This document shows positions 4,705-37,745 of a stretch of 64,000 nucleotides of DNA, in pieces. This DNA is from Poriferisphaera corsica (GTDB lineage: Bacteria; Planctomycetota; Phycisphaerae; Phycisphaerales; Phycisphaeraceae), in contig NZ_CP036425.1 of the NCBI RefSeq assembly GCF_007747445.1, positions 3,394,175-3,458,174 of the forward strand, read 5' to 3'. The number at the start of each line of letters is the position of its first letter. Positions within the stretch are counted from its first letter, which is position 1. Both the position numbers and the translations under genes were made by a program. The notes below the pieces were generated by a model. It saw only the letters and a list, made by a program, of their open reading frames with translations. It had not been told where the DNA came from and did not search any database.

Positions 4705-4848
4705 GGGAATTCGCGAGTGGAAATGTAATGAATATCTGAAAATCATCCGATATTGGAAATGATTTAGATCAAACTAAAAAGCTAAGCGTCTTAACGATCG
4801 AATCACTTTCATTGGATCATCTCTCTTATACGATTTCGGAAGACTATT

Positions 4849-5514
4849 ATGAAATTCAAACTGTCATTATTTTTAATGATTACGCTTATGCTTTTAACTG
4901 GGATGGCTGATCGGGCTGATGCTGCGGTCATTCATTATCGTGCGCAGGGGCATTTCATTTCATCATTCAATCCTCACGGGATGTTGGATCACATCTTGCC
5001 GTTGGTTTCGTTTGATACGAATGATGCGAACAACAAAGTAACCGTAGATATTATGGTTGATTACGAGGGGGTTTCACCTGAGCAAGGGGCGTCGCCAGGC
5101 ACGGGGTGGTTTTATAAGGACGTGGTGGAGAGCTATGTGTATACGATTGATGGGACGCAGTATCAGTTTAACACGAATTACACGACTACGATGATCAATG
5201 TGAAAGATGGCGGCTCGCCTACAGAGATAGATATCTGGTCGGTGTCGCTGTTGAATGAGGCAACGCTGCAAACAGATGCGATTGGGTTTGGGTTTGAGCC
5301 ATCGACGTATACGTCTGATATTAACCCGGCGGATTTTCCGAGCGGCGCGACGATGACGAACGCTGAGGGCGGGATCGCGTATTTCAGTACGGCGTTTAAT
5401 ACGTTGGTGTATGCGATTGATTCGTGGGAGATTGTAGAAGTACCTGAGCCGGGGAGTGTTGCGATGGTAGCGATGGGGTTGGTTCTACTACGAAAACGAC
5501 GATCCACACGATAA
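4849..5514 (+). CDS. PEP-CTERM secreted protein
   Basis: This 221-residue protein has an N-terminal signal peptide (MKFKLSLFLMITLMLLTGM, ending ADAA). The C-terminus is VPEPG, a short hydrophobic helix and RKRRSTR, the PEP-CTERM signal. The middle is acidic and beta-rich, with no domain I recognise. It is likely exported and processed at the C-terminus by an exosortase, which is not encoded in this window. A strong terminator follows. Confidence 0.75.
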   Translation: MKFKLSLFLMITLMLLTGMADRADAAVIHYRAQGHFISSFNPHGMLDHILPLVSFDTNDANNKVTVDIMVDYEGVSPEQGASPGTGWFYKDVVESYVYTIDGTQYQFNTNYTTTMINVKDGGSPTEIDIWSVSLLNEATLQTDAIGFGFEPSTYTSDINPADFPSGATMTNAEGGIAYFSTAFNTLVYAIDSWEIVEVPEPGSVAMVAMGLVLLRKRRSTR

Positions 5515-5543
5515 GTGATAAGAAAACTGAATGAAATGAATAG

Positions 5544-5578
5544 TAAAAAAGCCTCGCGTTGTACGAGGCTTTTTGTTT
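5544..5578. terminator. Intrinsic terminator
   Basis: The stem AGCCTCG / CGAGGCT with a 7-base loop is preceded by six A and followed by a T-rich run. It lies between the PEP-CTERM gene and the convergent bioB and can act in both directions. Nearly the same GCCTCGCG stem is reused at 13,405 and 44,875. Confidence 0.85.
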
Positions 5579-5601
5579 GGTTGTTTATGTGTGTTGGCTG
5601 A

Positions 5602-6843
5602 TTATGAGCAGCAACCAGTACCGCCGATGCCCTGCCCTGATGCGGCAGCTGCGGCGGCGAGGCCTGCAGCGGATCGGTTGATGGGCTCTTTGGGCATTTC
5701 GCCGGAGTTTAGGACAGAGAGGGCCATAATGGAACCGTCACGGCGTGACATCATTTCGGGCTTGCCGGGTGCAGAATCTGCACCGGGGGCAAGAACTGTG
5801 GCGTTAATGGGGTCTGGTTCGTAGACGTTGCCTGTGTCGTCGGTGTATTTGAGGCCGAGATCTTTGAGGAGTTGGTGGTCGGCTTGTGGGGTGCGGCCGA
5901 AGGTCGTGAGGTAGTTACCGATGAGGAATGACGAGGCGCCGCAGAAGAATGCGAGTGCTTGTGTGTCGCGAAGGATTTTTTCGCGGCCGCCAGCGAGCTT
6001 GATGGAAGCGTCGTGGAGGAGGAAGCGATAGATGGCGATGATCTTGAGACACTCCATGGGCGGAAGTTCTTCGATTGTGCCGTGGAGCTTTGTGCCGGGG
6101 ATTGCGTAGAGGAAGTTGACGGGGACGGTGTCGACTTTGAGGTCACGGAGTTCGATGGCCATGTCGATGCGGTCTTCCCACTGCTCGCCCATGCCGAAGA
6201 TGCCGCCGGCACAGATGTGCATGCCAGCGTCTTTGTAGGTTTTGATGGCGTCAACACGGTCTTGGTAAGAGTGGGTTGAGGTGACTTTGTGGAACTGGCG
6301 ACGAGAGGTTTCGAGATTGTGATTGATGCGTTTTACGCCCATGTCGTGAAGGCGTTCGGCTTGTTCTTTGGTGGCGATGCCAAGGGTTGCACAAGGGTTG
6401 ATCTTGCCGTTCTTGCCTTCTGATGTATTGCGGAAGAAGGGTTCCATCCAATCGAGTTCGGCGTCGGTTGGACCACGACCGGAGTTGACGATGCCGAATG
6501 CGTTGGCGCCGTTCTTGGCGGCTTCGCGGGCAGCCTCTTCCATATCCTCGACGGACATTTTGTCGGGCGTTACGTGTGTTTGATAAAGCTTGGATTGTGA
6601 GCAGTAGGTGCAGTCTTCAGGGCAGGCGCCAACTTTGCCTGCAACGATGGAGCAGAATTTGACGTGCGGGCCGACGAATTTCTGTTTGATCTTGTTTGCC
6701 CAGAAGAAGAGATCGTGGAGATCTGTATCAGGGATTTGTGTGAGTTGCATGGCTTGTTCTCTGGTGGCGGGTGTGCCGGAGAGGACTTGCAATGCGGTGT
6801 CCATGATGAATTGATTGAGACCCGTATCTGATTGGCGAATCAT
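5602..6843 (-). CDS. bioB: Biotin synthase (radical SAM)
   Basis: BioB inserts sulfur into dethiobiotin, the last step of biotin synthesis. The radical-SAM motif CPEDCTYCSQS (Cys 74, 78 and 81 counted from this start) binds the 4Fe-4S cluster. The AGGREK segment carries the Arg that ligates the 2Fe-2S cluster in the E. coli enzyme, and CGASSFLIGNYLTT matches the family C-terminus. I chose the ATG at 6843 (MIRQSDTGLNQF). An in-frame ATG at 6942 would add 33 residues with no family resemblance. Neither start has a good ribosome site. After the family end there is an unusual tail of Ala/Gly-rich sequence ending GTGCCS. No other bio genes are nearby. Confidence 0.94.
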   Translation of the reverse strand: MIRQSDTGLNQFIMDTALQVLSGTPATREQAMQLTQIPDTDLHDLFFWANKIKQKFVGPHVKFCSIVAGKVGACPEDCTYCSQSKLYQTHVTPDKMSVEDMEEAAREAAKNGANAFGIVNSGRGPTDAELDWMEPFFRNTSEGKNGKINPCATLGIATKEQAERLHDMGVKRINHNLETSRRQFHKVTSTHSYQDRVDAIKTYKDAGMHICAGGIFGMGEQWEDRIDMAIELRDLKVDTVPVNFLYAIPGTKLHGTIEELPPMECLKIIAIYRFLLHDASIKLAGGREKILRDTQALAFFCGASSFLIGNYLTTFGRTPQADHQLLKDLGLKYTDDTGNVYEPDPINATVLAPGADSAPGKPEMMSRRDGSIMALSVLNSGEMPKEPINRSAAGLAAAAAASGQGIGGTGCCS

Positions 6844-16714: not shown

Positions 16715-18253
16715 TTAGCCGCAGGAGAGGTGACCGAGCGGCTGAAGGTGCTGGTTTCGAAAACCAGTGTAGGACTTGTGCCTACCGAGGGTTCGAATCC
16801 CTCCCTCTCCGCTTCCCAAGCTCGTAAGTTCTTGATCTGCAAGACTTAAACGGGCTTTTTTAATGCGCGGTTCAGGCTCCTCACTGGAACCTGATTTTCG
16901 CATATTATCGCCAGAATGGTCATGTTTTCGTACCGATTCCGGACAACTAGGCGGACAACAGATTTGTTGTCCGTCGAGCGGCCTGTTTTGCGGCACTGGT
17001 TTTACGCTCTCAAACTGCAGATCCGGAAATGCTCGAATCGCAGACATTTGATCCTCTGAAAAGCCAGTTGTGTACTTACCTGTTAAGGTTGGTGTTGAAT
17101 GCCTCGCAAGATCTTGCGTTGTTTTCAGATGTGCGCCACCTCGTCCGACATGCGTGATAAACGAATACCGAAGCGCATGAAAATCTGCGTATCTGCCTTG
17201 CGCGTCTTTGTATTCAATCCCCGCCGCTTTAAGATCTGGCTTCAACAGGAAACGAACCACATGTTCGGATCTCGGCATATCAAACAACGGTTCATCGTCT
17301 AATCGTGTACTCGCATACTCACGAAGTAACCCCGCAGTTTCCGGTTTTAGAGGCTGGCGATCTTCTCGCCTTCGCTTACTGTAACCAGCTTCTACAACCA
17401 CATGAGCTTCATCGTCATCGAAAACAATCGAATTCTTCGTCAGACTACGTAACTCCGATGAACGAAAACCCGTTTCCATCGCTAAGCGGTATAGAATTGC
17501 ACGCTCTACGCCTGTCATTCTCCAAGCTGGCCTTCCTCTAAACATTCGGCCTTGCTTTGTTTCACCTCTTAGTGTTGCATTCAGTAAGTTCTGCATTTCC
17601 TCAACACTCAATGCACGCCGTTTACGCCTGCAATCGATATCTGCATTCAGCGTGGCTAGATGCTCAACCGGCGATTGATTTGCTCGGTTATTCTGCGCCA
17701 TCCAATTACAAAATTGCTTGATAGCTTGCACGTAAAAATTTGAAGTTCGAATGCTTATCCCTTGCCTCTTATTTTTACCTTGCCGCTGCTCATATAAAAA
17801 GGCTTCGATCTTCGTCGCTGAAATATCACCCCATGTCGTGAACCTGCAACCTCGAACCAAAATCTTTATCCGATTTACTTTCGTCACAACATAATCTTCA
17901 GTGTTACCCTTTGCTTTCAACGAAGTCTCAAAGTCATCAACATGATTGAGAAGTAAATCTGTATGAGCCATATATTTCGACTCAAGTAGATCTAGCTCCA
18001 TCATCTTCTCACGCAATGGCTTCGGAGCAGTTTCCAACCATTCATGCAAAGTCGGATCTAACGGCATACCCGTTATCCTGCAATTAATAATCTTCTGCAG
18101 CTTACGCATGATCTCATTTGCAACCGCTTTATCTGAATCAACCGCCCATCGCCTCACGATCTGATTATGATCGTTGAACTCCACATACCACTTACGGGTT
18201 TCTTGAGTTTCACCCGTTACTTTATCTTTATACTTACGTTTAAATAATCTCAT
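16715..18253 (-). CDS. Tyrosine recombinase (integrase)
   Basis: 512 residues as integrated. The N-terminal part holds a SAM-like core-binding domain (about residues 90-200). The catalytic domain shows the first Arg in ETGFRSSELRSLT, then HALRYSFITH, the later His in DLARHSTPTLTGKYT and the nucleophilic Tyr in that same motif. Catalysis is thus complete by about residue 400. The last part runs antisense through tRNA-Ser (GEGGIRTLGRHKSYTGFRN) and stops just left of it. The excised element would give a different tail (see 25521-25778). It belongs to the island in tRNA-Ser, and its ATG is followed upstream by the repeat cluster at 18.3-18.5 kb. Confidence 0.93.
   Translation of the reverse strand: MRLFKRKYKDKVTGETQETRKWYVEFNDHNQIVRRWAVDSDKAVANEIMRKLQKIINCRITGMPLDPTLHEWLETAPKPLREKMMELDLLESKYMAHTDLLLNHVDDFETSLKAKGNTEDYVVTKVNRIKILVRGCRFTTWGDISATKIEAFLYEQRQGKNKRQGISIRTSNFYVQAIKQFCNWMAQNNRANQSPVEHLATLNADIDCRRKRRALSVEEMQNLLNATLRGETKQGRMFRGRPAWRMTGVERAILYRLAMETGFRSSELRSLTKNSIVFDDDEAHVVVEAGYSKRRREDRQPLKPETAGLLREYASTRLDDEPLFDMPRSEHVVRFLLKPDLKAAGIEYKDAQGRYADFHALRYSFITHVGRGGAHLKTTQDLARHSTPTLTGKYTTGFSEDQMSAIRAFPDLQFESVKPVPQNRPLDGQQICCPPSCPESVRKHDHSGDNMRKSGSSEEPEPRIKKARLSLADQELTSLGSGEGGIRTLGRHKSYTGFRNQHLQPLGHLSCG
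16724..16811 (+). tRNA. tRNA-Ser (anticodon CGA)
   Basis: A complete 88-base cloverleaf. The acceptor stem is GGAGAGG / CCTCTCC with discriminator G. The anticodon stem CTGGT / ACCAG closes the loop TTCGAAA, giving anticodon CGA. A long class II variable arm and the T arm GAGGG TTCGAAT CCCTC follow. CCA is not encoded. Its 3' half is the integration site of the element to its right. Confidence 0.96.
16753..16830. other. attL: direct repeat within tRNA-Ser 3' end
   Basis: This 78-base stretch matches 25724-25801 with three mismatches (at 16774, 16810 and about 16815) and no gap. The longest identical block is 35 bases (16775-16809) covering the variable arm and T arm of the tRNA, the usual place for tyrosine-recombinase crossover. 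Confidence 0.9.
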
Positions 18254-18284
18254 CTAAATCCACTAAACCCTTTTCCGGAAATAC

Positions 18285-18521
18285 TAAAAACCAGTTTTCT
18301 CGAAACCGAAACCGGTTTCTAAAACACTTTCTATTTCCTGTTTTGCTTTACTGTTTACTTAAAACCGGTTTTAGAAACTGGTTTAAGGGTTTTAAAAGGG
18401 GTATTAACTAGTATTTCAGCTTAATAACCCGTTTCTAAACCTGTTTATTATCCCAGAAACCGAAACTATCAGCCAGTATTTACTAACCGTATTTCGAAAC
18501 TGTTTCTGGTTTAAAACCGCC
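18285..18521. repeat. Iteron-like cluster of AAACCGGTTT-type repeats
   Basis: AT-rich, gene-free stretch with many copies of AAAC(C/T)GGTTT and its halves. Perfect palindromes AAACCGGTTT lie at 18309 and 18362, and AAACTGGTTT at 18375. Degenerate copies occur at about 18285, 18427, 18455, 18485, 18497 and 18505. It lies between the integrase and the replication-like genes. Candidate replication origin or recombinase arm sites; which one cannot be told from sequence. Confidence 0.6.
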
Positions 18522-18613
18522 TAAACTAACTCTAAAACCTACAAACTTACGCCTTAACCTCTACTGACACTGACACAACCTATCCCCCCTCCCCCGGAAC
18601 TAAATTATTGGTG

Positions 18614-20056
18614 TTATTCACGCTGGACCTCACCCGTTTCGTCAGTGTCAGTATCGCCTTTCAACACGAATTGCTGTGTCGGTCTGCCGCCTTGCTGGGT
18701 GGTGGGTGAACTCGCCCATTCACCGATTCCAGCTAATACCAACGCATCAAGTTTCTGCTTGGCTTCGTCCACACTTTTGTAACAAGGCCCCGACCGCATT
18801 AGATCGCGCGGCGTTATTCTGCCGCCTTTCTTCTGCACCAACTCGATAATCTGCCGATACTCGCGGCTCGATTCATCCTCTCGCAACATGCCATAAACAC
18901 GCTTTGTTTCTTCGCAGAACCAACCAATCAACTCAATCGCCTGAATCATACTGAGCGAGTCAATACATTCCGGATTTGCAGAGCAATCACCATCAGTAAG
19001 ACGGATCATATGAACCAATAAAGCCAACCTCGCCGCATATGCTTCGAGTTTCGACCATGCAGCAGCAAGATCACCCGCCAAGTTTGCTTGTTGCTGATTG
19101 TGATCGTTGTAGAAGTTAATCCAGATCTGCTGCGTTTCAGCATCTAATGGCCAATTGATCGGTTCATCATCTGCAGCAAACTGCAAACTAAGTAATCCCT
19201 CAAAGATCCGATCTATACGCTGCTGCAATATTGGATCTACATTTGTATCTGTCCAACTCTTCGCTTTACGTGGCGGGTTCGCCATCAAAAATCTTGCCGC
19301 TAAGCCGTTCTCGATATTCTTTCTACCTAATGCACGACGCATTGCATCGGGTTGAATCCCGCCTGTAATACAGATCGAAGCTCTGGGGACATAAACCACT
19401 GGCGTGTTGCCTGATTTACGATCCACCTGCAAAGGATTCCCTTGAAACATCTCAAGATATTGCGCAACATCGCCGCTACCCTGTTTATACGCATTCATGG
19501 ATTCAAAGAACCCTGCAAGCTCATCGCGCGTAACTAAAATCCCGCGTGGGTTGTCTTGCAACCTGCTTGCCAATGCTTCAATTGTGATATCGTTACACAA
19601 GAAGCGGCGCAGTTGCGGAGCTTGCGGCTTTGTAGGCTGCTCACTGTTCTTGCTTTTGCGCCACGCTTTATAACGATCTTCATAATCAAGCAGCTCCGCT
19701 TCATGTGTTTCCTGCTGGATCTCGAATTCTTCGTTAGCTGTGCGCTGCATCTTTTGCAGGTATTGCAGCGCGATACGCTGCGCTGGCGTTTTATGCGTAC
19801 CTGATTCGCCAATCACTGCCGTCCAGATAATGCAAGGCTCACGCCAATCGCTTTTTAGCTGTATACGCTGCGTATTACCGACAGCAGCAGCCAAAGCGCT
19901 GATTAGAGGCATGGCTACGTAAGCATCATCACAGCCTATAGACTGCGCCGCTTGCTCTACGTACTGCGCTACAGATTCAGACAGCGCGTAGGTAGGAAAC
20001 GCCTTGTACTGTTGCGGTATTGCTACGCTTACGCTAGGTAAATACAGCTGGCTCAT
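18614..20056 (-). CDS. DUF3987 (YfjI-type) replication-associated protein
   Basis: 480 residues. The N-terminal part fits DUF3987: DDAYVAMPLISALAAAVGNTQRI, then a P-loop-like IGESGTHKTPAQRIAL near residue 80. Then LVTRDELAGFFESMNAYKQG, a Walker-B-like strand, and ICITGGIQPDAMRR with NGLAARFLMANPP. A winged-helix-like end follows (GGRITPRDLMRSGPCYKSVDEAKQKLDAL). Such proteins accompany Toprim primases in phages, plasmids and islands and are thought to act as helicase-like replication proteins. Its start overlaps the primase stop by four bases (ATGA), which indicates translational coupling. Confidence 0.85.
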   Translation of the reverse strand: MSQLYLPSVSVAIPQQYKAFPTYALSESVAQYVEQAAQSIGCDDAYVAMPLISALAAAVGNTQRIQLKSDWREPCIIWTAVIGESGTHKTPAQRIALQYLQKMQRTANEEFEIQQETHEAELLDYEDRYKAWRKSKNSEQPTKPQAPQLRRFLCNDITIEALASRLQDNPRGILVTRDELAGFFESMNAYKQGSGDVAQYLEMFQGNPLQVDRKSGNTPVVYVPRASICITGGIQPDAMRRALGRKNIENGLAARFLMANPPRKAKSWTDTNVDPILQQRIDRIFEGLLSLQFAADDEPINWPLDAETQQIWINFYNDHNQQQANLAGDLAAAWSKLEAYAARLALLVHMIRLTDGDCSANPECIDSLSMIQAIELIGWFCEETKRVYGMLREDESSREYRQIIELVQKKGGRITPRDLMRSGPCYKSVDEAKQKLDALVLAGIGEWASSPTTQQGGRPTQQFVLKGDTDTDETGEVQRE

Positions 20057-20976
20057 GCTGCACCACCTAGCGCTACAGCAACGCGCTGCATAGGCTTAAC
20101 GCTGATTAGATTAGCTAAATCGCTAGCTGCAGCCCCCGCGCGTAGCCATGCACGCATATCTTTATGCCCTGCTGGCGGCTGAATCACAAGTGTAGCATAG
20201 CCATGGCTAGCTAGTTGCTTAGCTAGGGCTGCTGCCCCTAGCTGCCCCGGCTCATCCTGATCACTCGCAATCACAAGCTGAGCTGGCTTTAGCTCCTTTA
20301 TATAAGTAAAAAGCTGCTTTTCGCAGCCACGGCAGCTTGGCCTGCCTATTGCGTTAGCCCCCATATCAAGCAATGCGGCGGTATCGCTTGGCCCCTCAGC
20401 TATAAGCAGCGTTTGCACTGGCTCTTCTGCACTGCGTAGCTGCTTAGGAATAAACAATCCCTGCTTGCTGCCTTTGATAGCCCATTTTTTACCGTGATCG
20501 TTACGCAGCCGAATACCACTATATGAAGCTGAATCGTGCATCATCGGAAACGTCCACGCTACCTGCTTAGTGTTCCAGCCAGCTTCTAGCTGCTCCAAGC
20601 TCTGTACGCTTACGCCTAGATTATCGCTCAACTTATAAAGCCCGATCTCTTTGGCTTTTAGGTGATAAAGCTGAGTGAAGTTTTTCCATTGAATCGGATC
20701 AATCTCAGATATAGGCTCAACGTATGGCTTCACATATCGCCGACTTGCAAAGCTACAGGAGGGGGTTGTGTCAGTGTCAGTGCGGGGGGTGAGCTTATGT
20801 AGGAAACCGTTGTTTCTTGTTTCCAGCACGCAGCCTTCACTAACACGCATGCAAATACAAACTTGCCCATCATTGCTAACGCTACACCAATCCGGCTTGC
20901 CGCAGATCGGGCAAGGATGACCTCGCCCAACCCGCACCAGATCCGATCCACTTGAAGGGAATTGCTGATAACTCAC
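20053..20976 (-). CDS. Toprim-domain primase-like protein with zinc ribbon
   Basis: About 307 residues. An N-terminal zinc ribbon (CPICGKPDWCSVSNDGQVCICMR) is of the phage primase type. The Toprim domain has the Glu in LLIAEGPSDTAALLDMGANAIGRP and the acidic pair in LVIASDQDEPGQLGAAALAKQL. This is the architecture of a DNA primase lacking the large polymerase core. I chose a GTG start at 20976, because GTGA overlaps the stop of the AlpA-type gene and the ribbon then lies near the N-terminus. The open frame reaches 21036. With the DUF3987 gene it forms a two-part replication module. Confidence 0.85.
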   Translation of the reverse strand: MSYQQFPSSGSDLVRVGRGHPCPICGKPDWCSVSNDGQVCICMRVSEGCVLETRNNGFLHKLTPRTDTDTTPSCSFASRRYVKPYVEPISEIDPIQWKNFTQLYHLKAKEIGLYKLSDNLGVSVQSLEQLEAGWNTKQVAWTFPMMHDSASYSGIRLRNDHGKKWAIKGSKQGLFIPKQLRSAEEPVQTLLIAEGPSDTAALLDMGANAIGRPSCRGCEKQLFTYIKELKPAQLVIASDQDEPGQLGAAALAKQLASHGYATLVIQPPAGHKDMRAWLRAGAAASDLANLISVKPMQRVAVALGGAA

Positions 20977-21287
20977 GCAGCACCTCCCCGCATCTGATTC
21001 CAACGAAGCATGTTTGGCATACCTGCCGCAACCCATTGCTTCAACTCATCTAGCCGCCAACGTACAACACCCCCCAACTTAACAGGCTTCGGTAACTTGC
21101 CAGCATTACGCATGCGATAAACATGCGCCACACTGATATTCAGAAATTCAGCCACCTGCTCTGCCCTAAGAAGTAAAGCAAGTGATTTTGAAGTGTTTTG
21201 AGAACCATTTCCAGTGGAGTAAACATCGCGGTTCTCAACCGATGCTTCACCCTCTACGTTATTACATGAAGTACTATTATCTTTCAT
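20973..21287 (-). CDS. AlpA/excisionase-type helix-turn-helix protein
   Basis: 104 residues. After a polar N-terminus of about 35 residues, LLRAEQVAEFLNISVAHVYRMRNAGKLPKPVKLGGVVRWRLDELKQWV is a MerR-like winged HTH of the AlpA/excisionase class. It would control integrase or replication genes or assist excision. It heads the minus-strand run AlpA-primase-DUF3987 with overlapping codons. Palindromic sites lie upstream (21326-21422). Confidence 0.85.
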   Translation of the reverse strand: MKDNSTSCNNVEGEASVENRDVYSTGNGSQNTSKSLALLLRAEQVAEFLNISVAHVYRMRNAGKLPKPVKLGGVVRWRLDELKQWVAAGMPNMLRWNQMRGGAA

Positions 21288-21325
21288 GTACTAACGCGAA
21301 ATCGGTGTATCTGCGCAAGTTAAAC

Positions 21326-21422
21326 TACCCCCTCAAAACTCATATACACCTACTAAATAAACACTTATACTTACATAAGAAAAGTATGGGGGTACCCCGT
21401 TTACTACCACCACGCTACCCCC
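21326..21422. promoter_or_regulatory. Possible operator repeats upstream of the AlpA-type gene
   Basis: A perfect palindrome GGGGTACCCC at 21389-21398 is flanked by TACCCCC copies at 21326-21332 and 21416-21422. The array lies in the leader of the AlpA-primase operon. The binding protein is unknown; the AlpA-type protein or the 21438 HTH protein are candidates. Confidence 0.4.
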
Positions 21423-21437
21423 GAAAAACACCCCTTT

Positions 21438-22325
21438 TTAATCCCAATCTTCACTAGTATCCGAATCCCAATCAGAATCTGATTCTGAATCAGGTGATCG
21501 TTCGTCTCTATATGCACCAATATTATTCTTAGGCCCTGTATAGGCTGGCCCCAAATCATTAGAGGCAATCATTGCTTGCCCTCTTTGATCATGCGGCAAA
21601 TTTTGCTTCTCTATATGGCTGACGGCCTTCTTACCTAATATCTCACATGCTCTCTTGTAATGCTGTTCAATCGTTTTTCGATCTTTACCTAATCTTCTTG
21701 CTGCTTCGGCAATATTTCCATTGCAGTCCTGAACCATCCAAAATGCTTCTGCTTGTTTTTCTGTAAGATTAGCGTCAACAACCCCTTTACGCTGGCTGCG
21801 TTTCCTACGTTTCTTTGGTTTTGTTTCTTCACATTCTGCGTGTAGTTGTTGTAGTAACCACTTCGAAGCAAGCAACGGCATTTTGACAACACCCGTTGCA
21901 TAACCACCATATTTACTAGGTTCTACAACAATCATTGGACTGTTACGTTCCATCAATTCAGATATCAAGAATGTAGTCCACAGCACAACTACAGGCGGCT
22001 CCTCGACATACCGAACTGAATCTACCTCTACATCACCAACCGCTTTCACAGCCTTCGCACTCAATGCGATATACTGCTCCCAGAAATTTGGTGATTTCCC
22101 GCTTAATCTAAACCTGCAGTAACTTGTTTTACCAACGCCATCACGCCCTTCAAACGGCTCGATATGATGCGAAAACAATTTATGTTCTTCCATCAATCGC
22201 ATTTCATAGTAGATATTGAATTTTTCATCTAATGAGCCTGTAAAAATGAAACCTAACTCGGTTTCACGCCCACCCCATATGCGATCTGCATCATCAAATG
22301 CACCGATCATTTCACTTAAATCCAT
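21438..22325 (-). CDS. Island protein with C-terminal HTH, unknown role
   Basis: 295 residues. The first 170 residues are not recognised. A Lys/Arg patch (KPKKRRKRSQRKG) precedes a sigma-region-4-like HTH: LTEKQAEAFWMVQDCNGNIAEAARRLGKDRKTIEQHYKRACEIL. The end is very acidic (DSESDSDWDSD). The HTH suggests a DNA-binding or regulatory role within the element. It is divergent from the KAP gene; the 212 bases between them should hold both promoters. Confidence 0.6.
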   Translation of the reverse strand: MDLSEMIGAFDDADRIWGGRETELGFIFTGSLDEKFNIYYEMRLMEEHKLFSHHIEPFEGRDGVGKTSYCRFRLSGKSPNFWEQYIALSAKAVKAVGDVEVDSVRYVEEPPVVVLWTTFLISELMERNSPMIVVEPSKYGGYATGVVKMPLLASKWLLQQLHAECEETKPKKRRKRSQRKGVVDANLTEKQAEAFWMVQDCNGNIAEAARRLGKDRKTIEQHYKRACEILGKKAVSHIEKQNLPHDQRGQAMIASNDLGPAYTGPKNNIGAYRDERSPDSESDSDWDSDTSEDWD

Positions 22326-22537
22326 CTCACTGCCTTACATCTATAGAGTTGATATATTTCACCGTTGTATCTCTAATGTACACATTTGTTTACCGCTTTG
22401 CTCGGCTTATCCACTTATTACTCCGCATTAACTGGTGATTCATTTTCAACTTCCCGCTCAGCTAATTGCCTGCTATTTTATAAACCTACACGGTTCATCC
22501 AAACTGTATATCTATACATTCCGCAGGCAATTTTCAT

Positions 22538-25507
22538 ATGAATCATTTGACCTTGGCTACTAAATATGCAATGCATGGCAACGCTGCTCTGATATTTGGC
22601 ATGCTCACAGTCATAGCAACAACTTGGGCAATGACCATGACTTACCACAAAGAAACACTTAAAGAAAATCGCCAACACAGACGTTACGTTCACCGCTGGG
22701 TAGATATCTTTCTTCTGAGTTGCGTCGCAGCAAGCATTTGCATCTTTACGCTCCCGCATCTTGAACGGCTTTCTGTTGGTTTCATATTGCACACTCAATT
22801 TTTGCACCACGCCATTGGCATTAGCATCCTTACATGGGCAGATATTTTCGCAATACCAATCATTACACTAGCAATTCTCTATCTACATCATCACGGTGCA
22901 TTTCGTAAGTTTGGTAATTTCGGCCAGTATCCCAGTATAATATTTGCAATCATTTTGGTTCTCATTGTCGTGTTAATCGCCCGGCAATCCCGACTAGCCG
23001 GCCCTCAGTATCACGCATTCGTGCATATTGATTGGATTGTTCTTTCCATATTAATTGCACTACCAGCTACTTTCATGGCAGGTATTTGGCACAACCGTTA
23101 CCTACATTCAAAAAACAACGAAGATCCACATGATCAGGATCATGATTTAACTAACATCTCGCCACACGAACTACTCGCCCAACTCACAGTTAACGATAAG
23201 GCATGGCAAGAAATGAAATCGTGGTTCAATGATACTCGTCCCATCACAATACCCGAAAACGACAAATTCGGTGCACGACGTACTGCCAAACAAATAGCCA
23301 ATGTATTCGCTCAACCAATTAATCTCTCAAACAAACAAGGAGCAGCTATCGGCCTCATTGGCCCTTTTGGTTCTGGCAAAAGTTCGGTAATCGAAATGGC
23401 GAAAAATGTTTACAAACGTAAATACGACAAACTCAAGGATACGGAACAATACACTGATAACCCTACACATTATCCTCTCGCATTTTATATTCCAATTAAA
23501 ACATGGGGTATTGAGCCTGAAACTCTCACGCATCACATGCTTGATGCGGCAATAAGCAAACTTCGAATGCATATGGATACGATTGGATTTTCACGTTTAG
23601 CAGAGCATTACGTCCAAGCTGTCAACGCTACTAGTGTTAGCTGGCTACAATCGCTCGCGGCATTGCTTCGCACTCACAAAGATCCTGAAAATATATTAAA
23701 AAACATCAATCATGCATTACAAGCAATTAACCGACAAATTATCTTTGTCATTGAAGATATTGATCGCGCCGAATTATCTGATTCACAACTCAGAAAACAG
23801 CATCTTGACTTACAAGCTATGATGGATCATCTAAACGAATGCTCTCATTTCAATTTTATTATATCAATCAGTCAGTCTGCATTTGATGTAAATCGCCTTT
23901 GTAAAACAAGAATCAAGCTATTGAGTATTGATGCTGAATTAACTGGAGCCATATTGCAAGCATTTCGTTATCGTTGCCTGCAAACTGCATTAACAAACAA
24001 TATCCTGTTTCCAGATATAACGGAAAATGAAATCAACAGAATAAAGAATCTAGTCCCATCTCAATCCCATCACATGACAGAAGAAAATTCTAGCAAATAC
24101 GATTATGATTCCGTATGGACGCATGTAATCCCCTTACTATGCAATCCAAGACGACTTACAAATACGCTCAACCAAACACTCTCTGCTTGGGGGAAAGACA
24201 AAGAGTTAAAGAAACTACGCGGTGAAGTTAATTTTGATGAATTACTTATAGTAGAAACCTTGCGAACTACTTATCCGCAAGCCGTAGATTTTATTGATCG
24301 TATAAAATGTAATAATTATTCGCCTGCGGAACACATGAAAAATAAAGAAGAAGAAAAAGAAACCTCTAACAAAATTAATAAAAGCAAGACTGAGCTTAAT
24401 CTTCTTTTAAAAACAATCGATCAAAATGACCGCACTCATGTAATTGAGATCATATCTCACTTTACTGGATTGTATAGCAATCGAGGGGAAATACGAAGTA
24501 ACGGATTAGATTCTACAGCGCAAAAAACTAAATGCGGACGACAAACTGATATCTATTGGCATCGCCTTTTTGAGTCATATCCAACACAAGATAAGCATCT
24601 AACAGATCAAGAGATTCTTCACGGCGTTTCAAACTGGCAAAACGACAAAGAACATCAAGAACTACCTGAAAAATTATTTAGCGACAACCATTATTTATCT
24701 AAATTCATACATCTGCACAAACATGCACATAATCCAAATCCTGAATGCATACTCGGGTGTAAAAAATTGCGTAAACTTCTAAAAAGTATCTACAAATATG
24801 CACTGACAAAGAAAGATCATGGCATACACTTCAATCAATCTACTAGCATTTATCAAATCCTTGAAATTGCTTTGAAGGATAAACAACGATCTGTAGATGA
24901 TGTATTCACCTGGTATATTACCTCTGTAAATAAAGAAAAGAGCAGCAACTTATCACTTGCAGTACACCTATTATGGATCAATGAGCATGAGGATATTTTA
25001 AATCCAACAGATGTTGATTCTGTTGTCAACACCGCCATCAATTCATGGGCATCCAGTATGCTTACCGACGGTAAGCATGGTTACGACATACTATTCGATG
25101 CTCTACCGAAGAATACTCTGATAAATATTTTTTGTCTAAAAAGCTTTGTTCAATATTCTCAAACCATTAATTACTCTGAACTATATCAAGCCCTTCAATT
25201 GCTTATCGACAATCATCCAAAAGAATCGGCACCATATATAGCAGCGATGTTATTCGATACAAAAACTGCTGAGCATAATATGTACAACCGCGGGATACAT
25301 GATAACTATTTAAGTTACACAATTGACTTTAACTTTGTCACACAATTAATACCGCAAGTAAATGACCGTTTAGCAATTCTCGATATAATTATTGCCAGAT
25401 TAAATTATCAACTCACTCATACTCAGTTTAGTGACAAAGAACTGAAGCGTTTTTATGAGAATGCGATATCTGAGCTTAGCCTATGGCGAAGCAAGGGTGC
25501 GTTATAA
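22538..25507 (+). CDS. Membrane-anchored KAP family P-loop NTPase
   Basis: 989 residues. The N-terminal 190 residues hold about five membrane helices (for example IIFAIILVLIVVLIA and IVLSILIALPATFMAGIW). The KAP NTPase domain follows: AIGLIGPFGSGKSSVIEMA (Walker A, about residue 275) and IIFVIEDIDRAEL (Walker B, about residue 405), then FIISISQSAFDVNRL. The C-terminal 450 residues are helical without known motifs. KAP proteins are tied to phage exclusion (F-plasmid PifA) and membrane signalling, so as the only large cargo of an integrated element it is a candidate defence gene; that role is inference. Codon use is more AT-rich than the neighbours'. Confidence 0.82.
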   Translation: MNHLTLATKYAMHGNAALIFGMLTVIATTWAMTMTYHKETLKENRQHRRYVHRWVDIFLLSCVAASICIFTLPHLERLSVGFILHTQFLHHAIGISILTWADIFAIPIITLAILYLHHHGAFRKFGNFGQYPSIIFAIILVLIVVLIARQSRLAGPQYHAFVHIDWIVLSILIALPATFMAGIWHNRYLHSKNNEDPHDQDHDLTNISPHELLAQLTVNDKAWQEMKSWFNDTRPITIPENDKFGARRTAKQIANVFAQPINLSNKQGAAIGLIGPFGSGKSSVIEMAKNVYKRKYDKLKDTEQYTDNPTHYPLAFYIPIKTWGIEPETLTHHMLDAAISKLRMHMDTIGFSRLAEHYVQAVNATSVSWLQSLAALLRTHKDPENILKNINHALQAINRQIIFVIEDIDRAELSDSQLRKQHLDLQAMMDHLNECSHFNFIISISQSAFDVNRLCKTRIKLLSIDAELTGAILQAFRYRCLQTALTNNILFPDITENEINRIKNLVPSQSHHMTEENSSKYDYDSVWTHVIPLLCNPRRLTNTLNQTLSAWGKDKELKKLRGEVNFDELLIVETLRTTYPQAVDFIDRIKCNNYSPAEHMKNKEEEKETSNKINKSKTELNLLLKTIDQNDRTHVIEIISHFTGLYSNRGEIRSNGLDSTAQKTKCGRQTDIYWHRLFESYPTQDKHLTDQEILHGVSNWQNDKEHQELPEKLFSDNHYLSKFIHLHKHAHNPNPECILGCKKLRKLLKSIYKYALTKKDHGIHFNQSTSIYQILEIALKDKQRSVDDVFTWYITSVNKEKSSNLSLAVHLLWINEHEDILNPTDVDSVVNTAINSWASSMLTDGKHGYDILFDALPKNTLINIFCLKSFVQYSQTINYSELYQALQLLIDNHPKESAPYIAAMLFDTKTAEHNMYNRGIHDNYLSYTIDFNFVTQLIPQVNDRLAILDIIIARLNYQLTHTQFSDKELKRFYENAISELSLWRSKGAL

Positions 25508-25520
25508 TTTTCCGATTCAA

Positions 25521-25778
25521 TCACTCTCGATTATTTACACCCTCAATAATTGCCAATACCCCCATCCTCACACTTGGCGGCAACTCATCCCACTTCTCCG
25601 CAATCCTCGCTAAATCTGGGTGTTCGAAAAGCGCACAAATAGCCTCCGGACAAACATCCGGACAACCGTTATCGTCATTGCTTTTATCTTCTGCTAATAA
25701 AGCACTTACGATTTTTGGTTCGAGGTTTCGAAAACCAGTGTAGGTCTTGTGCCTACCGAGGGTTCGAATCCCTCCCTC
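25521..25778 (-). pseudogene. Displaced C-terminal tail of the integrase
   Basis: This open frame of 85 codons has no start. It begins in the att repeat with EGGIRTLGRHKTYTGFRN, the same peptide in the same frame as the integrase at attL, then continues LEPKIVSALLAEDKSNDDNG and HPDLARIAEKWDELPPSVRM to a stop at 25521. The HPDLA..W..LP...R.G...II pattern is one I recall as common at the C-terminus of planctomycete integrases. In the circular element the integrase would read on into this tail. In the integrated form it is separated from its gene. It converges on the KAP gene with 13 bases between. Confidence 0.8.
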
Positions 25779-25801
25779 TCAGCTTTCCAAGCTCGTAAGT
25801 T
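25724..25801. other. attR: displaced copy of tRNA-Ser 3' end
   Basis: A partner of the repeat at 16753-16830 (75 of 78 bases equal). The 5' half of the tRNA is absent, so this is not a functional tRNA gene. Similarity continues weakly to the right (GAGCTTTTCTAATTCACG against GGGCTTTTTTAATGCGCG). The region from here to 26121 has no recognised gene. Confidence 0.9.
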
Positions 25802-26121
25802 TTTAACCACAAAACTGAAGCGAGCTTTTCTAATTCACGTAACGGTCAAGAAACGGCAAGTTGGATTGTCAAAAATGAGGACTTATGAGCCTTCGAACAG
25901 TTTTGTGCGTGCAACACCAAAACACGGTCATCACCTAATCTTTTTAATGCAATTTGCTTACATGTCAGTCAACTAACTCGCATAGTATTCTTTGATCAAA
26001 CGAATTGCCTCACACAGTTACCGCCACTCACTGCCAAACTTATGATCCCTGCCCCTTCTCTTAAAATGATTTTATGTAATCCCCGAAAAAAGTTCCCAAC
26101 ACCATTTCTTCTCCTTCTCCT

Positions 26122-26341: not shown

Positions 26342-26729
26342 CTACCAACCATCTTTTGCGTATTCTTGTAAATTTTTCAGCTGTTCTAAGTGTTGCATGT
26401 ACCATCCCGAAACCTTCGCATCTGAAGTTGTTCCTAAATCAACCGCATGCATCTCTCTAATATGTGCATAGCTAACATGCGGTCACTATGATCGTACGTC
26501 CATATTGATCTCTCACCATCAAGATCACCACCAGGTATAAAAAGTTTGCAAAAAATGTCCGTTGGGTGAGCTATTCCCAATAGGCTCAATATTTTTGTTT
26601 TTTGACACCCATTCCCCTCCAAGCCATATAGATCTATTAAATACTTGTTACAACTTCACGTGGATTATTTAAAGTAAAATCATTAATCACTGCCCCGGCG
26701 GTAAACTCTCTATTAATAACCCATGGCAT
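26342..26729 (-). pseudogene. Frameshifted remnant, probable Rhs immunity gene
   Basis: The ATG overlaps the toxin stop (TAATG) and gives MPWVINREFTAGAVINDFTL. Meaningful sequence then continues only by changing frame four times: KYLIDLYGLEG, then EWVSKNKNIEPIGNSSPNGH, then PGGDLDGERSIWTYDHSDRM, then IREMHAVDLGTTSDAKVSGW and LKNLQEYAKDGW with a stop at 26342. Restored length would be about 129 residues of hydrophilic protein. Position directly after an Rhs toxin domain is that of an immunity gene. The family is not recognised. Confidence 0.65.
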
Positions 26730-27850
26730 TACCGATTTAAATAATTACCATTAGCACCTATAATTCCTTTAAAACTTGCCCAAAAATCGTCTTTAGACCG
26801 GTAGTTATATACATTTCCTCTAACATCTGACTGTATAGAAGATAGTTTGTTGAACTTTTTATATTTACCGAAATGAGTAATATCATATGGACTACCCATC
26901 ATTATAAAGTTATCGATTTTAGCCTTCGTTGGCGTCGCAGGTACTATCGAATTATTATTAATGCCATATTCTGGTATATAGCTACTATCCATCGCAAACA
27001 TCGCAATTTCAGTACCTTGGCTATGGGCCATAATAGATATATTTTCTTCGCTGCCTGTGCGTTTTTTTAAACCATCAAGTTCCGCGATTAAAATAGATAA
27101 TCTTTCTGCTGCCGCCTTATTGTAACCATGAAATTTCGTTGTATCATCGGTTGCCTTCAAAGAGCTGCCTCCTTGGACCCCATCCTCATCCCACCATTTA
27201 AACTCGATAATTTCTTCTTCCGGCATACCGTGAGCTTTCCAATATGCTCTTAGACCTGCTTTCGCATGCTCAAACCAAGCGGCATCAGTATTAACACCAT
27301 GAATTAGAATCATTACCAGTCCTAACGGATCTACCCCATCGACACCCTTGTATGCGCCGTAGAGGTTTAGGCCGTCTTTGTAACCGGCGGAGTCGGGGCT
27401 TAGCCAACGGTCGTGGACTGGGTCGAAATCACGGTAGTGGGTATGGTGGAAGCCAGTGAAACGGTCACGGTACATGCCGGTCCAGCTGAAGGGGATGAGT
27501 TTGGATTGAGCGACATTTGCTATCTCATGCGTTATGCTGTCACCGTGGGTAATCTCGTTGCCGTTCGCATCGTAAACCTTGGTGAGGTCTGAGATGTCGT
27601 GTTTGAGTTATTCGAGGACGTTGCCATTTTCGCCAGTAACACCCATGAGCGTGCCACGATCGTTGATCGCAGCAACATAGGCTTCGGGGCCGTCGTTGCC
27701 GGTGCAATCTTCGACGGGGGCGATGCGGTTGATGGCACTCTGAATAGGTGTAGCGCCGGAGGAGCTTGCCGTTGTCAGGGTCATTCTGATCGGAGCTTTG
27801 GCGTTCTTCGATTTAACCGGTGAATGGCCAATCGAGATTATTATGACCAT
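26729..27850 (-). pseudogene. Orphan Rhs tip with lipase-like toxin domain, broken
   Basis: Reading from the left boundary of recognisable sequence, the Rhs core part NDGPEAYVAAINDRGTLMGV and GENGNVLE is followed by an in-frame TAA at 27608. The same frame then goes on to YRDRFTGFHHTHYRDFDPVH, SPDSAGYKDGLNLYGAYKGV and DGVDPLG. After that conserved DPLG boundary comes a variable C-terminal domain: MILIHGVNTDAAWFEHAKAG and IMAHSQGTEIAMFA, an alpha/beta-hydrolase with the nucleophile-elbow Ser (AHSQG). This is the form of a polymorphic toxin with a lipase/esterase effector. The large upstream Rhs barrel is missing. An ORF of 248 codons from 27475 remains intact after the stop. Confidence 0.75.
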
Positions 27851-28220
27851 GCGTAATTATCATTCCCCGCATGTAAACCTACTCAAGAACCGCACGCTGC
27901 TCACCGTCACGGGAAACCACACGCGACATTCATACCTTCCCCCTTCCACGCACCAAATACACGCCCATCACATATCCGCCACTTCACAGCAACCCACCCC
28001 GAACATAAACCATACTTTCATCAGATCGAAATATCTCAATTCAGAACCGCAAACGATCTGTATATGAAAGTGATTTTCTGTTAAACTGATGCCATCTCTC
28101 GTGTATGCCGCTGACGGGTGGGCTGTCTCGGCAAGTGGTATTTTTACGTTTTTACAACGTTTTCAGTTAGGTTCCCAAGTGATATCCGAATCAATCGGAT
28201 GGTAGCGAAAGGTGTGCACA
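27851..28220. other. Intergenic region before the ABC ATPase gene
   Basis: No gene seen. A 19-base stretch at 28091-28109 (GCCATCTCTCGTGTATGCC) recurs with one change at 31276-31294, and the similarity continues loosely (ACGGGTGGGCTGT against ACGGCATGGTGGGTTGT). The promoter of the ATPase gene must lie here; AAAGG at about 28208-28212 is its ribosome site. Confidence 0.45.
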
Positions 28221-29357
28221 TTGGCAGAGGTCATTATTAAAGATGTAGAGAAGGTCTATCCCGGCGGCTTCAAAGCGGTTAAGGGTATCAATCTCGACAT
28301 TCATGATTCAGAATTTATCGTGCTTGTCGGGCCTTCAGGCTGCGGCAAGTCGACAACACTCCGCATGGTGGCGGGTCTGGAAGAGATCAGCGGCGGAACC
28401 GTTTCGATCGGCGATCGCGTCGTCAATGACGTCCCACCAAAAGATCGCGATATCGCGATGGTGTTCCAGAACTACGCGTTGTATCCGCATATGTCGGTTT
28501 ACAAAAACATGGCTTTCGGCCTGAAACTGCGTGGTATGAAGAAACCTGATATTGATGAGCGTGTCCGTTGGGCATCATCCATTCTTGGCTTGGACACATT
28601 ACTCGAACGTAAACCCAAAGCACTCTCAGGTGGTCAAAGACAGCGTGTCGCTGTCGGCCGTGCGATTGTTCGCCAACCGGCTGCATTCCTGTTCGACGAA
28701 CCCCTGTCGAACCTTGATGCAAAGCTGCGTGTTGAAACGCGTGCAGAGCTCAAGCGTTTGCACCACAAATTGCAAACAACCACGATTTACGTGACCCACG
28801 ACCAGGAAGAAGCGATGACACTTGGTGACCGCGTTGTGGTCATGAGTGAAGGGCTGATCCAGCAAGTCGATGCACCTTTAACCGTATACGAACGACCTGT
28901 GAACCGCTTTGTGGCAGGTTTCCTCGGCACGCCGCCGATGAACTTCCTCAGCGGCGCACTGACCAGCAAAAATGGTGGTGTGTTCTTTGAAGGTGAAGGC
29001 GTTTCGCTGAAGCTGAATGAAGAGCAGGCAGACAATGTTGCGAGCCATATCGGTCAAGATGTTACTTTGGGTTTGCGTCCTGAAGGTGTTTACATGCACG
29101 CGAATGAGCATGCGAACGACGAAGACCGTACGGCAGAATTGGAAGTAAACGTCATCGAGCCGTTGGGCGACACGATGGACTTGTTCCTGGATACCAGCAC
29201 GGGTGCGAGATTGGTTGCCCGCGTGAAAGCTGAGCATCTGGATCTCGGCACGAAGGTTAAGATGTATGTTGACCCCACGAAGATTCATATTTTCGAACCG
29301 GGCGAGTATGGCAACAACATCAGCTTGACGGAAGTTAAAGAAGCTGTCACGGCATAA
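28221..29357 (+). CDS. Carbohydrate ABC transporter ATP-binding protein (MalK/UgpC type)
   Basis: 378 residues. The ABC domain has Walker [12 protein letters not shown]-loop [12 protein letters not shown], signature [10 protein letters not shown], Walker [12 protein letters not shown] and the switch His in [14 protein letters not shown]-terminal regulatory TOBE/MalK-type domain begins near residue 240 ([15 protein letters not shown]). TTG at 28221 gives [16 protein letters not shown], the usual start, eight bases after AAAGG; an upstream GTG at 28212 is possible. It is the likely energy unit for the permeases at 31.5-34.8 kb, although it lies on the other strand across a 2-kb spacer. Such ATPases often serve several sugar importers. 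Confidence 0.92.
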
Positions 29358-34889: not shown

Positions 34890-37745
34890 TTATTTCATAT
34901 TGTTGATGTCAACGAGTACTGCAGTTTCATATGCGGGGACTGAGATGATGAGGGAGCCGTTAGTCGGTTTTTGAGATTTGGCTGCTTTAGTGAGTGCTAA
35001 CTCGGGGCGAGCGTCGGGGGTGTTACCGGTGGTAAGTGTTGTTTGGTTTTGGCCTAGAACGTTGACGAAATTAATGTTTGCATCGCGTAAGTCGACGGGG
35101 ACCTCGATGGTGTAATCGGTGTTGCTGCGGTTGATGAGGATATAGACGCGGCCTTGCTCGTTTTCACGGATGAAGCTGAAGATGTTGCGATCGTCATCGG
35201 CGATGAGTTGGCGGTAGAGGCCGGTTTGCAAAGCTGGGAGTTTGCGACGGACAGCGATGAGTTTTTGTGTTGATGCGAAGATTTCGGGGTTGAAGCCGAC
35301 TTCGGGGTCATCGAACTTCATGCCAGGCCAAGTCATGGGTTGACGGTTTGATGGGTCGTCAGGTGAGTACATGCCGGCTTCGTTGCCGTAGTAGATCATG
35401 GGTGCGCCGACGAAGGTCATCTGGAAGGCAAAGGCCTGGATCATGCGTTTGTATTCGAGGGCGCTAGGTTTGCGTGGATTGTAGTCGGGGCCGTTATCCT
35501 GGAGGCGGTTTGCGCCGTCGTAGGAGATGTCAGGGTTGACGAACATGGATGAGAAACGATCGGTGTCGTGTGAATCGAAAAGGTTTTGCTGTGCGAGTGA
35601 GACCTGGAGAGGGTAGTTGTAGATGATGCGGTTAAGGCGAGTTGCGAGCTCGGTGGGTTTGATTTGTGTTTCAACGTCAACGAAGAAATCTTGTGCGGCT
35701 TGCGCGAATAGATAGTTCATGACGGCGTCGAATTCGTCGCCTTGAAGATAGTCTTGTGCCCAATGCCAGATCTCGCCGGAGATGTAGGCATCGGGATTGA
35801 TGTCTTTAACGACCTTGCGCCAGCGTTTCCAGAAAGCGTGGGGGACGTCGTTTGGTGCATCGAGTCGCCAGCCGTCGATGCCTCGAGAGACGTCGCCGTT
35901 GGGTGCCATCCAGCGACGGGTGATGTCGAAGATGTGTTGCGACGGCGCATCGGCGAGGCCGAGGACGGGATCTTTTTTCCATGCGGGTAGGCCGGAGTTT
36001 TTGCCGCCCCAGCCGTTCCATTGAAGACCGCCGGGTTTGCCGGGTTCGCCGCCTGTCCCCCAGTCGGTGATGTCGAACCATTCGGCGTATATAGAGTCTT
36101 TACCGTTCTTGAGGACGTCTTGGAAGGCGAAGTGTTTGGGGCCAACGTGGTTGAAAACGCCATCGATGATGACCTTGAAGCCTTGCTTGTGGGCTTCGTC
36201 GATGAATTCGAGGAACATTTTGTCGGTTTCAGACCATTGCCATGTGGATGGCTCGAGTGACTCGCCTTTGAGTTTTTCGATATCACCTTTGACGCCGAAG
36301 TTATCGTCGATGTGACGGTAATCGGTGGCGTCGTACTTGTGCATGGATTCGGCTTCGAAGACGGGGTTGAGGTAGATGGCGTTCACGCCGAGTTTGCGGA
36401 GGTATGGGAGTGCTTCGCGGAGGCCTTGGATGTCGCCGCCGTATTTGCGCCACCAGACATTTCCGACGCCGGTGTAGAAATCGTCCATCGTTCCTTTTTC
36501 ACCGGGAAGCATGGAGAACCATTCGGACGTCCAGCGTTTAGTGAGCTTAGGATCGTTTGAGGGGTCGCCGTTACGGAAGCGTTCAGGGAAGATCTGGTAC
36601 CAGATGGCTTTGTGCGTCCATTCGGGAACGAAAAAATCGAACGCCATGCTGCGTTTGAAGGCAGCGGCTTTTGCCTTGACAAGCGATTGATGAATACCAC
36701 TATTCGAGAGATAGATGGATTGGTTGCCATCAATAATTTCGAAGATGAATTGGATTTCATCGGATGCACTGTCAGCATCGACGCTGTAGACATCGAAGCC
36801 CATTGCACTTTCGGAGAGGTTCATGGGGAGGGATTGCCACACGTCGTTGAATTGCGCAGGTGCGTAGTACAGATTTGCGGCGGTTGCGTCTTTGGCTTGC
36901 ACACGGATACGGATGAGCGCGTGATTGGATCTGAAGATGCTGAAGCCATCGATGGCAACTGCTGCGGTGTTGATGTGGTTAGGTTTTGGTTTAGAGAGTT
37001 TACGGCCATCTGGTCCGATGAAGACAGCGCTGTTGACGCCTGTATTGCCGTCGGACATTTCAAATTCTTTGTCACTGGCAGGGTCGTTCATCCAACGGTT
37101 GTTGTTGACGACGAATTTGTAGAAGTGGACGCCTTTTTCGAGTGGCAATTCGATCTGGTAGACGCCGTTACCGATGTCTTGCATGGGGGTTTTGTCTTTG
37201 CTCCAGCCGTTCATTGAACCGGCGAGTACGACGGTGTTGATTTTCTCTTTGATGAATTTGCTGGGGATGTAGACGAATTTGTGAAGATATTTGCCGTCTG
37301 GGAGGAGAATATCCTTGCCGGTGAGTGCGGAAACTTCGCCAAGGACGTTTTCGAATTGCGAATCGGAGAGTTGTACTTTTTCAGCGGCGATGCCGATGGC
37401 GATACCGGAGTTGCGGCCGCCGTGGCCGTCTCCTTCGGTTAGCTTCGCGTCGGCGGTTGGGTCTTCGAAGTATTTGGTGTTATTGACAACGAATTTGTAG
37501 TGATGAACACCTTCGGAGACTGGGAGGGTCACTGACCAGATATCCTGCCCTTCGTCGATCATGACGCCGGCGTCGGGATCCCAGTTGTTAAATGAGCCAA
37601 TGACAGAAACGACTTGAGCGTCATGTGGAGCTACAAATCGAAACGTGTGCTGGACGACATTTTGCGCTGCAGATGCAAGTGAAGCGATACTAAAAAGTAC
37701 AGCTAAGAACACGACACATCTGACTTGATCTCTACCTAGATGCAT
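34890..37745 (-). CDS. Secreted GH13 alpha-glucan hydrolase with two starch-binding E-set modules
   Basis: 951 residues with a signal peptide (VVFLAVLFSIASLASA). Residues about 30-115 and 165-250 are two CBM48/AMPK-type modules (VIGSFNNWDPDAG and LAGSMNGWSKDKTP, each ending in HHYKF/HFYKF). The GH13 catalytic domain starts near residue 380 (HKAIWYQIFPERFRNGDPSN). It shows IDGVFNHVG, the nucleophile Asp in GIDGWRLDAPND (about residue 626), the acid Glu in SGEIWHW (about 657) and the Asp in FDSHDTDRF (about 727). The pattern is that of neopullulanase/cyclomaltodextrinase. It shares strand and order with the transporter genes and the LacI gene, so it should generate or trim maltodextrins outside the cytoplasm. 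Confidence 0.92.
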   Translation of the reverse strand: MHLGRDQVRCVVFLAVLFSIASLASAAQNVVQHTFRFVAPHDAQVVSVIGSFNNWDPDAGVMIDEGQDIWSVTLPVSEGVHHYKFVVNNTKYFEDPTADAKLTEGDGHGGRNSGIAIGIAAEKVQLSDSQFENVLGEVSALTGKDILLPDGKYLHKFVYIPSKFIKEKINTVVLAGSMNGWSKDKTPMQDIGNGVYQIELPLEKGVHFYKFVVNNNRWMNDPASDKEFEMSDGNTGVNSAVFIGPDGRKLSKPKPNHINTAAVAIDGFSIFRSNHALIRIRVQAKDATAANLYYAPAQFNDVWQSLPMNLSESAMGFDVYSVDADSASDEIQFIFEIIDGNQSIYLSNSGIHQSLVKAKAAAFKRSMAFDFFVPEWTHKAIWYQIFPERFRNGDPSNDPKLTKRWTSEWFSMLPGEKGTMDDFYTGVGNVWWRKYGGDIQGLREALPYLRKLGVNAIYLNPVFEAESMHKYDATDYRHIDDNFGVKGDIEKLKGESLEPSTWQWSETDKMFLEFIDEAHKQGFKVIIDGVFNHVGPKHFAFQDVLKNGKDSIYAEWFDITDWGTGGEPGKPGGLQWNGWGGKNSGLPAWKKDPVLGLADAPSQHIFDITRRWMAPNGDVSRGIDGWRLDAPNDVPHAFWKRWRKVVKDINPDAYISGEIWHWAQDYLQGDEFDAVMNYLFAQAAQDFFVDVETQIKPTELATRLNRIIYNYPLQVSLAQQNLFDSHDTDRFSSMFVNPDISYDGANRLQDNGPDYNPRKPSALEYKRMIQAFAFQMTFVGAPMIYYGNEAGMYSPDDPSNRQPMTWPGMKFDDPEVGFNPEIFASTQKLIAVRRKLPALQTGLYRQLIADDDRNIFSFIRENEQGRVYILINRSNTDYTIEVPVDLRDANINFVNVLGQNQTTLTTGNTPDARPELALTKAAKSQKPTNGSLIISVPAYETAVLVDINNMK

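Follow-up and report, generated by a model that had tools for sequence, protein, structure and literature searches.

The genome of Poriferisphaera corsica, a marine bacterium of the order Phycisphaerales, is a single contig of 4,291,168 bp. In the stretch of 64,000 nucleotides analyzed here, referred to as the window in the following, the gene for tRNA-Ser(CGA) hosts a mobile element of 8,971 bp (Table 1). It fulfils the criteria for an integrative element in a tRNA gene, namely a complete tRNA at one end, a displaced tRNA fragment at the other and an integrase inside. The direct repeats at its two ends are offset by 8,971 and align over 82 bp without a gap and with 5 mismatches; a preliminary description of the locus, made from sequence alone, had given their length as 78 bp, which is corrected to about 82 bp, while its ungapped alignment held. 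Since the block of identity between the repeats starts in the anticodon arm, we infer that the crossover probably takes place in the anticodon loop. As to the cargo, relatives of the AlpA, Toprim and DUF3987 proteins reappear in several of the paired elements described below, so that the element belongs to a larger family of integrative elements that are small and replicate. The KAP NTPase carries hydrophobic segments at its N-terminus. Just beyond attR, at positions 26729-27475 of the window, we observed a fragment that begins in an Rhs-like manner (DPLGL) and also matches the effector domain of Tle3.

Table 1. Features of the integrated element and its ends (positions refer to the window)
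Feature	Position	Strand	Remarks
Integrated element	16755..25725	none	8,971 bp, counted repeat start to repeat start
Tyrosine integrase of 512 aa, tailless as integrated	16715..18253	-	Phage_integrase domain at residues 248-396
tRNA-Ser(CGA), complete; target gene restored at attL	16724..16812	+	antisense to the 3' end of int
attL repeat	16753..16834	none	ungapped against 25724-25805, 5 mismatches
DUF3987/helicase-primase protein, replication module	18614..20056	-	domain matches
Toprim primase-like protein	20053..21036	-	domain matches
AlpA/HTH_17 protein, candidate excisionase/regulator	20973..21287	-	domain matches
HTH (sigma70 region 4-like) protein	21438..22325	-	domain match
KAP P-loop NTPase, in part similar to the PifA model; cargo with a candidate role in defence	22538..25507	+	
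Detached tail-coding segment, joined to int in the circle	25521..25724	-	stop codon at 25521, preceded by 67 codons (25524-25724)
Conserved core of the tail (HPDLxxxxxxWxxLPxxxRxGxxAxx), helical hairpin by prediction	25527..25637	-	profile and structure prediction
attR repeat (3' fragment displaced from tRNA-Ser)	25724..25805	none	repeat alignment

The integrase satisfies the membership threshold of PF00589 (E = 2.7e-16; 60.3 bits against a curated cut-off of 27.1). Its gene leaves the element through the antisense strand of the tRNA and continues for 12 more codons before a stop, so that the C-terminus of the integrated form reads ...EGGIRTLGRHKSYTGFRN-QHLQPLGHLSCG. When the two ends are joined in silico into a circle, the frame remains unbroken, and the resulting protein of 567 aa reads ...GFRN-LEPKIVSALLAEDK...IEGVNNRE. 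The attachment site attP is located within the integrase gene, and integration at tRNA-Ser exchanges the tail of the enzyme for 12 residues of antisense tRNA. In this respect the preliminary description, which had proposed an internal attP and a swapped C-terminus with in-frame products of 512 residues (integrated) and 567 residues (joined), held, as did its 12-residue ending and its 67-residue tail running to the stop. Upstream of the conserved core, the tail frame in the window contains no ATG, GTG or TTG; it can therefore not be an independent gene for the full tail, and we conclude that integration silences it.

Tails of this kind are widespread. When the 67-aa tail was used in a single-sequence search, homologs came up in 87 out of 400 genomes from the order, and a profile built on the core of the tail (40 aa) matched 91 of 392 Planctomycetota genomes at E<=1e-4. 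This profile comprises 51 rows, in which one W is invariant and L, LP and A are nearly so, and the tail has no relative in Pfam, PHROG or NCBIfam. Among 96 tails in the regions collected from the order, none shares an open reading frame with an integrase. Instead, an antisense T-arm motif precedes the tail in 79 of 95 cases, where 2.6 would be expected, and in only 2 cases is the motif on the same strand. Whenever a tail and its partner integrase are found in one region, they are linked by a shared repeat of 28-82 bp.

The joins between these partners preserve the reading frame. We assembled 26 tail-integrase pairs on the same contig, 22 from pairing (21 in frame) and four, in G057, G027, G005 and G021, that were read from the sequence and are all in frame. 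Taken together, 25 of the 26, at about 12 tRNA genes, join in frame, compared with one third expected by chance; the pairs are not all phylogenetically independent, but even allowing for some related pairs, this far exceeds chance. An out-of-frame join, which would have refuted the proposal, occurs in a single pair (L088). The targets are genes for tRNA-Ser (cga, gct, tga), Thr (tgt, cgt), Gly (gcc, tcc), Arg (tct), Leu (caa), Lys (ctt), Asp (gtc), Met (cat) and Ala (tgc), and all three antisense frames are used (GIRT, FEPT and DSNPR types), with the partners of a pair in agreement.

A similar picture is obtained from the integrases. Among the 30 best-related ones, 20 contain a complete tRNA gene within the 3' end of int, always in antisense orientation, and 4 more have a tRNA at most 300 bp downstream. 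It had also been argued that the proposal would fail if close relatives ended at the catalytic domain, and some integrases do indeed end soon after it. In the three examined, which belong to these 4 (L013, L024 and L026), the antisense tRNA lies just past a short tailless C-terminus. As the tRNA gene is thus outside the int frame, they use conventional attachment sites. A second integrase of the P. corsica genome (L071, about 4589-6300; 571 aa) crosses tRNA-Ser(gct), with neither a second att copy nor a tail in the 57 kb examined. In G001 (L072 and L282), of the same genus, an integrase with 68% identity has an in-frame TAG and an attR without a tail, and this element looks decayed. A scan of genome contigs with the window integrase returned just one distant match, from Verrucomicrobia, and the plasmid and phage record collections contain no close relative.

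Several further arrangements were observed in these regions. In L080 (10556-10831) and L082 (14410-14781), the tail of a second element overlaps the 3' end of the first integrase in another frame, leaving the tail unrestored; possibly, such a frame difference stops tandem neighbors from restoring each other's tails. Two unlike tails adjoin in L163 (positions 1362 and 1627), probably at a nested or tandem attachment site. In a rarer arrangement, the integrase 3' ends of L091 and L201 read the tRNA in sense, and the att fragment is its 5' part. In many related integrases, the linker that leads from the catalytic domain to att contains a conserved ATGT[DH] motif, which the window integrase lacks.

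The tail is conserved as a protein. Over the 30 codons of its core, the median pairwise omega is 0.37, compared with 1.43 and 2.70 in the shifted frames, and third codon positions are the most variable. The omega values are not independent, given that many pairs share common ancestry; with this reservation, purifying selection acts on the codons of the tail. The omega values, the shifted-frame controls and the variability of third positions together argue for selection on the protein rather than for conservation of attP as DNA. Tail and integrase show only weak co-inheritance (Mantel r 0.39, p 0.006), and without two close relatives their co-divergence is not significant (r 0.12, p 0.2).

If the tail is present only in the free element, unintegrated relatives should carry it fused to the integrase, after the segment corresponding to GGIRTLG. 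This prediction of the preliminary description held. A scan of IMG/VR with the integrase alignment A2 yielded 49 loci, of which three phage contigs (L197, L201 and L231) have a single open reading frame that comprises the catalytic domain, a fragment of a tRNA and the tail. The fragment corresponds to the 3' half of tRNA-Arg in L197 and to the 3' part of a tRNA in L231; in L201 it is the 5' part and is read in the sense direction. With ARAGORN, a complete tRNA was detected in none of the three. Each of them encodes a large terminase, and genes for portal and major head proteins are present in L201 as well. The tail junction of L197 recurs in L278, which stems from a different sample. The only match in a scan of viral contigs with L231 as query was L231 itself. 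By contrast, in the prophage-type loci L223 and L227, a complete tRNA is found in the int 3' end and the tail is absent. This pattern fits free versus integrated genomes, although it is a pattern only, without data on circularity. L077 was considered as a circularly closed contig, but is not proof of a circle: att repeats occur close to its two ends, which do not overlap exactly.

A fourth fused case, and further support for the same prediction, comes from a tandem array on the bacterial contig G689:C270 (L297-L299; stitched 27693-28862 and 35397-37148). There, the frame of a remnant integrase runs on without a break, by way of a fragment of tRNA-Ser, and enters the tail of the neighboring element, whose own integrase, at a complete tRNA-Ser(tga), is integrated and tailless. 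Recombination between the tandem att sites would, we infer, yield the same frame.

For structural considerations, we rely on models of the fused protein from L197. It is predicted to be an ordered integrase of the lambda type, with lambda integrase as its top fold match in the PDB, and with a disordered region at residues 422-534, the att-bearing linker. The tail is predicted as a hairpin of two helices (539-546 and 553-571; pLDDT ~76-87). With att in a disordered linker, the model assigns the site to the region of the protein that is under the least constraint, and we infer that such a linker suits a sequence that must double as tRNA antisense.

In summary, a detached tail occurs across Planctomycetota at many tRNA genes, in frame, under selection and fused to the integrase in phage contigs of the unintegrated type. 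The explanation that we consider likely for these observations as a whole is an attP within int and a detachable tail that registers the state of integration. The 'read-out of integration state' put forward in the preliminary description held as a matter of anatomy; a change in activity is only inferred, by analogy with Mx8, and no circle, transcript or assay is available. We propose that attP occupies the stretch coding for the linker between the catalytic domain and the C-terminal helical hairpin, and that the circle encodes the tailed enzyme of 567 aa. This enzyme would perform or favor integration, via tetramer assembly or attP-attB synapsis. Loss of the tail at integration would lower or alter activity, as published for Mx8, leaving a weaker or biased enzyme; the integrase would thereby register its own integration state, and the integrated form would be stabilized. 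Excision may be left to the tailless enzyme and a helper, for instance the AlpA-like protein. Since integration leaves the catalytic domain whole, which it does not in the suicidal integrases of archaea, excision need not rely on an outside integrase.

Four other explanations deserve consideration. The most serious, which remains possible, is that the tail only stabilizes or localizes the free-form integrase, as a protease, partner or oligomerization tag, without changing the direction of recombination. A small helical hairpin on a disordered tether, as predicted, would be compatible with this, and conventional relatives with the tRNA outside the frame manage without a tail. We have nothing decisive against it, but the integrase would be state-dependent in this case, too. 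Alternatively, the detached tail might be a separate small protein of the integrated state, such as an excision factor or inhibitor. Some ATG, GTG or TTG lies between the att motif and the core in 39 of 76 tails; yet 37 of the 76, including that of the window, have no start codon there, the open frame starts in the tRNA fragment, and the phages contain fused forms, which makes this very unlikely. It is likewise very unlikely that the segment is conserved as DNA, for the arm-binding sites of the integrase in attP. The attP arms of lambda-type systems do occupy this position, but the codon-position pattern and the shifted-frame controls speak against this explanation, and protein similarity survives where the DNA has diverged. 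Finally, an incidental overlap, in which int merely runs through att into a functionless tail without any state read-out, could be invoked as integrase genes often adjoin att and frequently end through antisense tRNA, but it is hardly credible in light of a core that is conserved phylum-wide with one invariant W, in-frame purifying selection, a frame kept in 25 of the 26 pairs and the fused tails of the phage contigs.

The detachable tail as a record of integration state remains the preferred reading. It can be extended to a bolder one, which we are inclined neither to endorse nor to dismiss: that elements and phages of Planctomycetota possess a class of self-tailing integrases, with the hairpin as a built-in directionality domain. 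The hairpin would be decoupled from the tRNA target and its frame and joined to the enzyme only when attP is whole, and one gene would give rise to different enzymes for integration and excision. The choice of tyrosine integrases between integration and excision is usually credited to separate directionality factors. Here, a DNA rearrangement edits the enzyme itself, and the conservation of the tail across a phylum implies selection on the edit. This raises the prospect of recombinases in which a detachable tail sets the direction, and the many natural tail-integrase pairs make the switch testable in any of them. On a practical level, antisense tRNA explains the recurring protein ends GGIRT, FEPT and DSNPR in planctomycete annotations, and a tail frame next to a tRNA fragment is a simple marker of element ends.

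The closest known systems are the Myxococcus phages Mx8 and Mx9, in which attP lies within int (Tojo 1996, Magrini 1999, Julien 2003, as cited in PMC6070905, PMC4701971, PMC4383910). According to papers citing the original work, integration of Mx8 trades 112 C-terminal residues for 13, and the integrated form is less active. Like the element described here, these phages use a tyrosine integrase with an in-frame exchange of its C-terminus on integration, and an antisense-tRNA-like stretch, STGLEP, is visible in Mx8 Int. The tails, however, are unrelated (the tail profile gave no match on Mx8 Int, with an i-Evalue of 0.07), the integrases are only marginally similar, and, in contrast to Mx8 and Mx9, the planctomycete tail forms one family over a phylum and many tRNA targets. 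In the suicidal integrases of archaea (SSV1, pTN3, pT26-2), integration cuts the gene into int(N) and int(C), whereby the catalytic part is split off, and excision presumably requires another integrase (PMC8371274). As in these, att lies within the integrase gene at a tRNA target and the gene is split by integration; the P. corsica integrase is nevertheless not a member of this group, as its catalytic domain remains in the frame of 512 aa. The parallel to SSV drawn in the preliminary description therefore held only in part, and Mx8 is closer, as only the tail departs and the catalytic half stays. According to the same review, recombinases that disrupt the gene encoding them are found in archaea only. 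Given Mx8 and the planctomycete family, this does not hold in a broad sense, with the qualification that here only the tail and not the catalytic part is removed, and our findings extend to bacteria what was termed an archaeal speciality. In streptococcal ICEs in rumA, att is likewise within the integrase gene, and the C-terminus differs between the integrated and excised forms (PMC4701971), but the enzyme is a serine integrase and the target is not a tRNA. The mycobacteriophages BPs and Brujita carry attP in the repressor gene, and integration alters the C-terminus of the repressor as a state switch; the likeness is this switch, the difference that a repressor and not the integrase is altered. 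We found no report of the planctomycete tail in the open-access literature searched. Thus, while an attachment site within an integrase gene is already known from Mx8, Mx9, the rumA ICEs and SSV, a detachable tail that is phylum-wide and under selection appears to be new.
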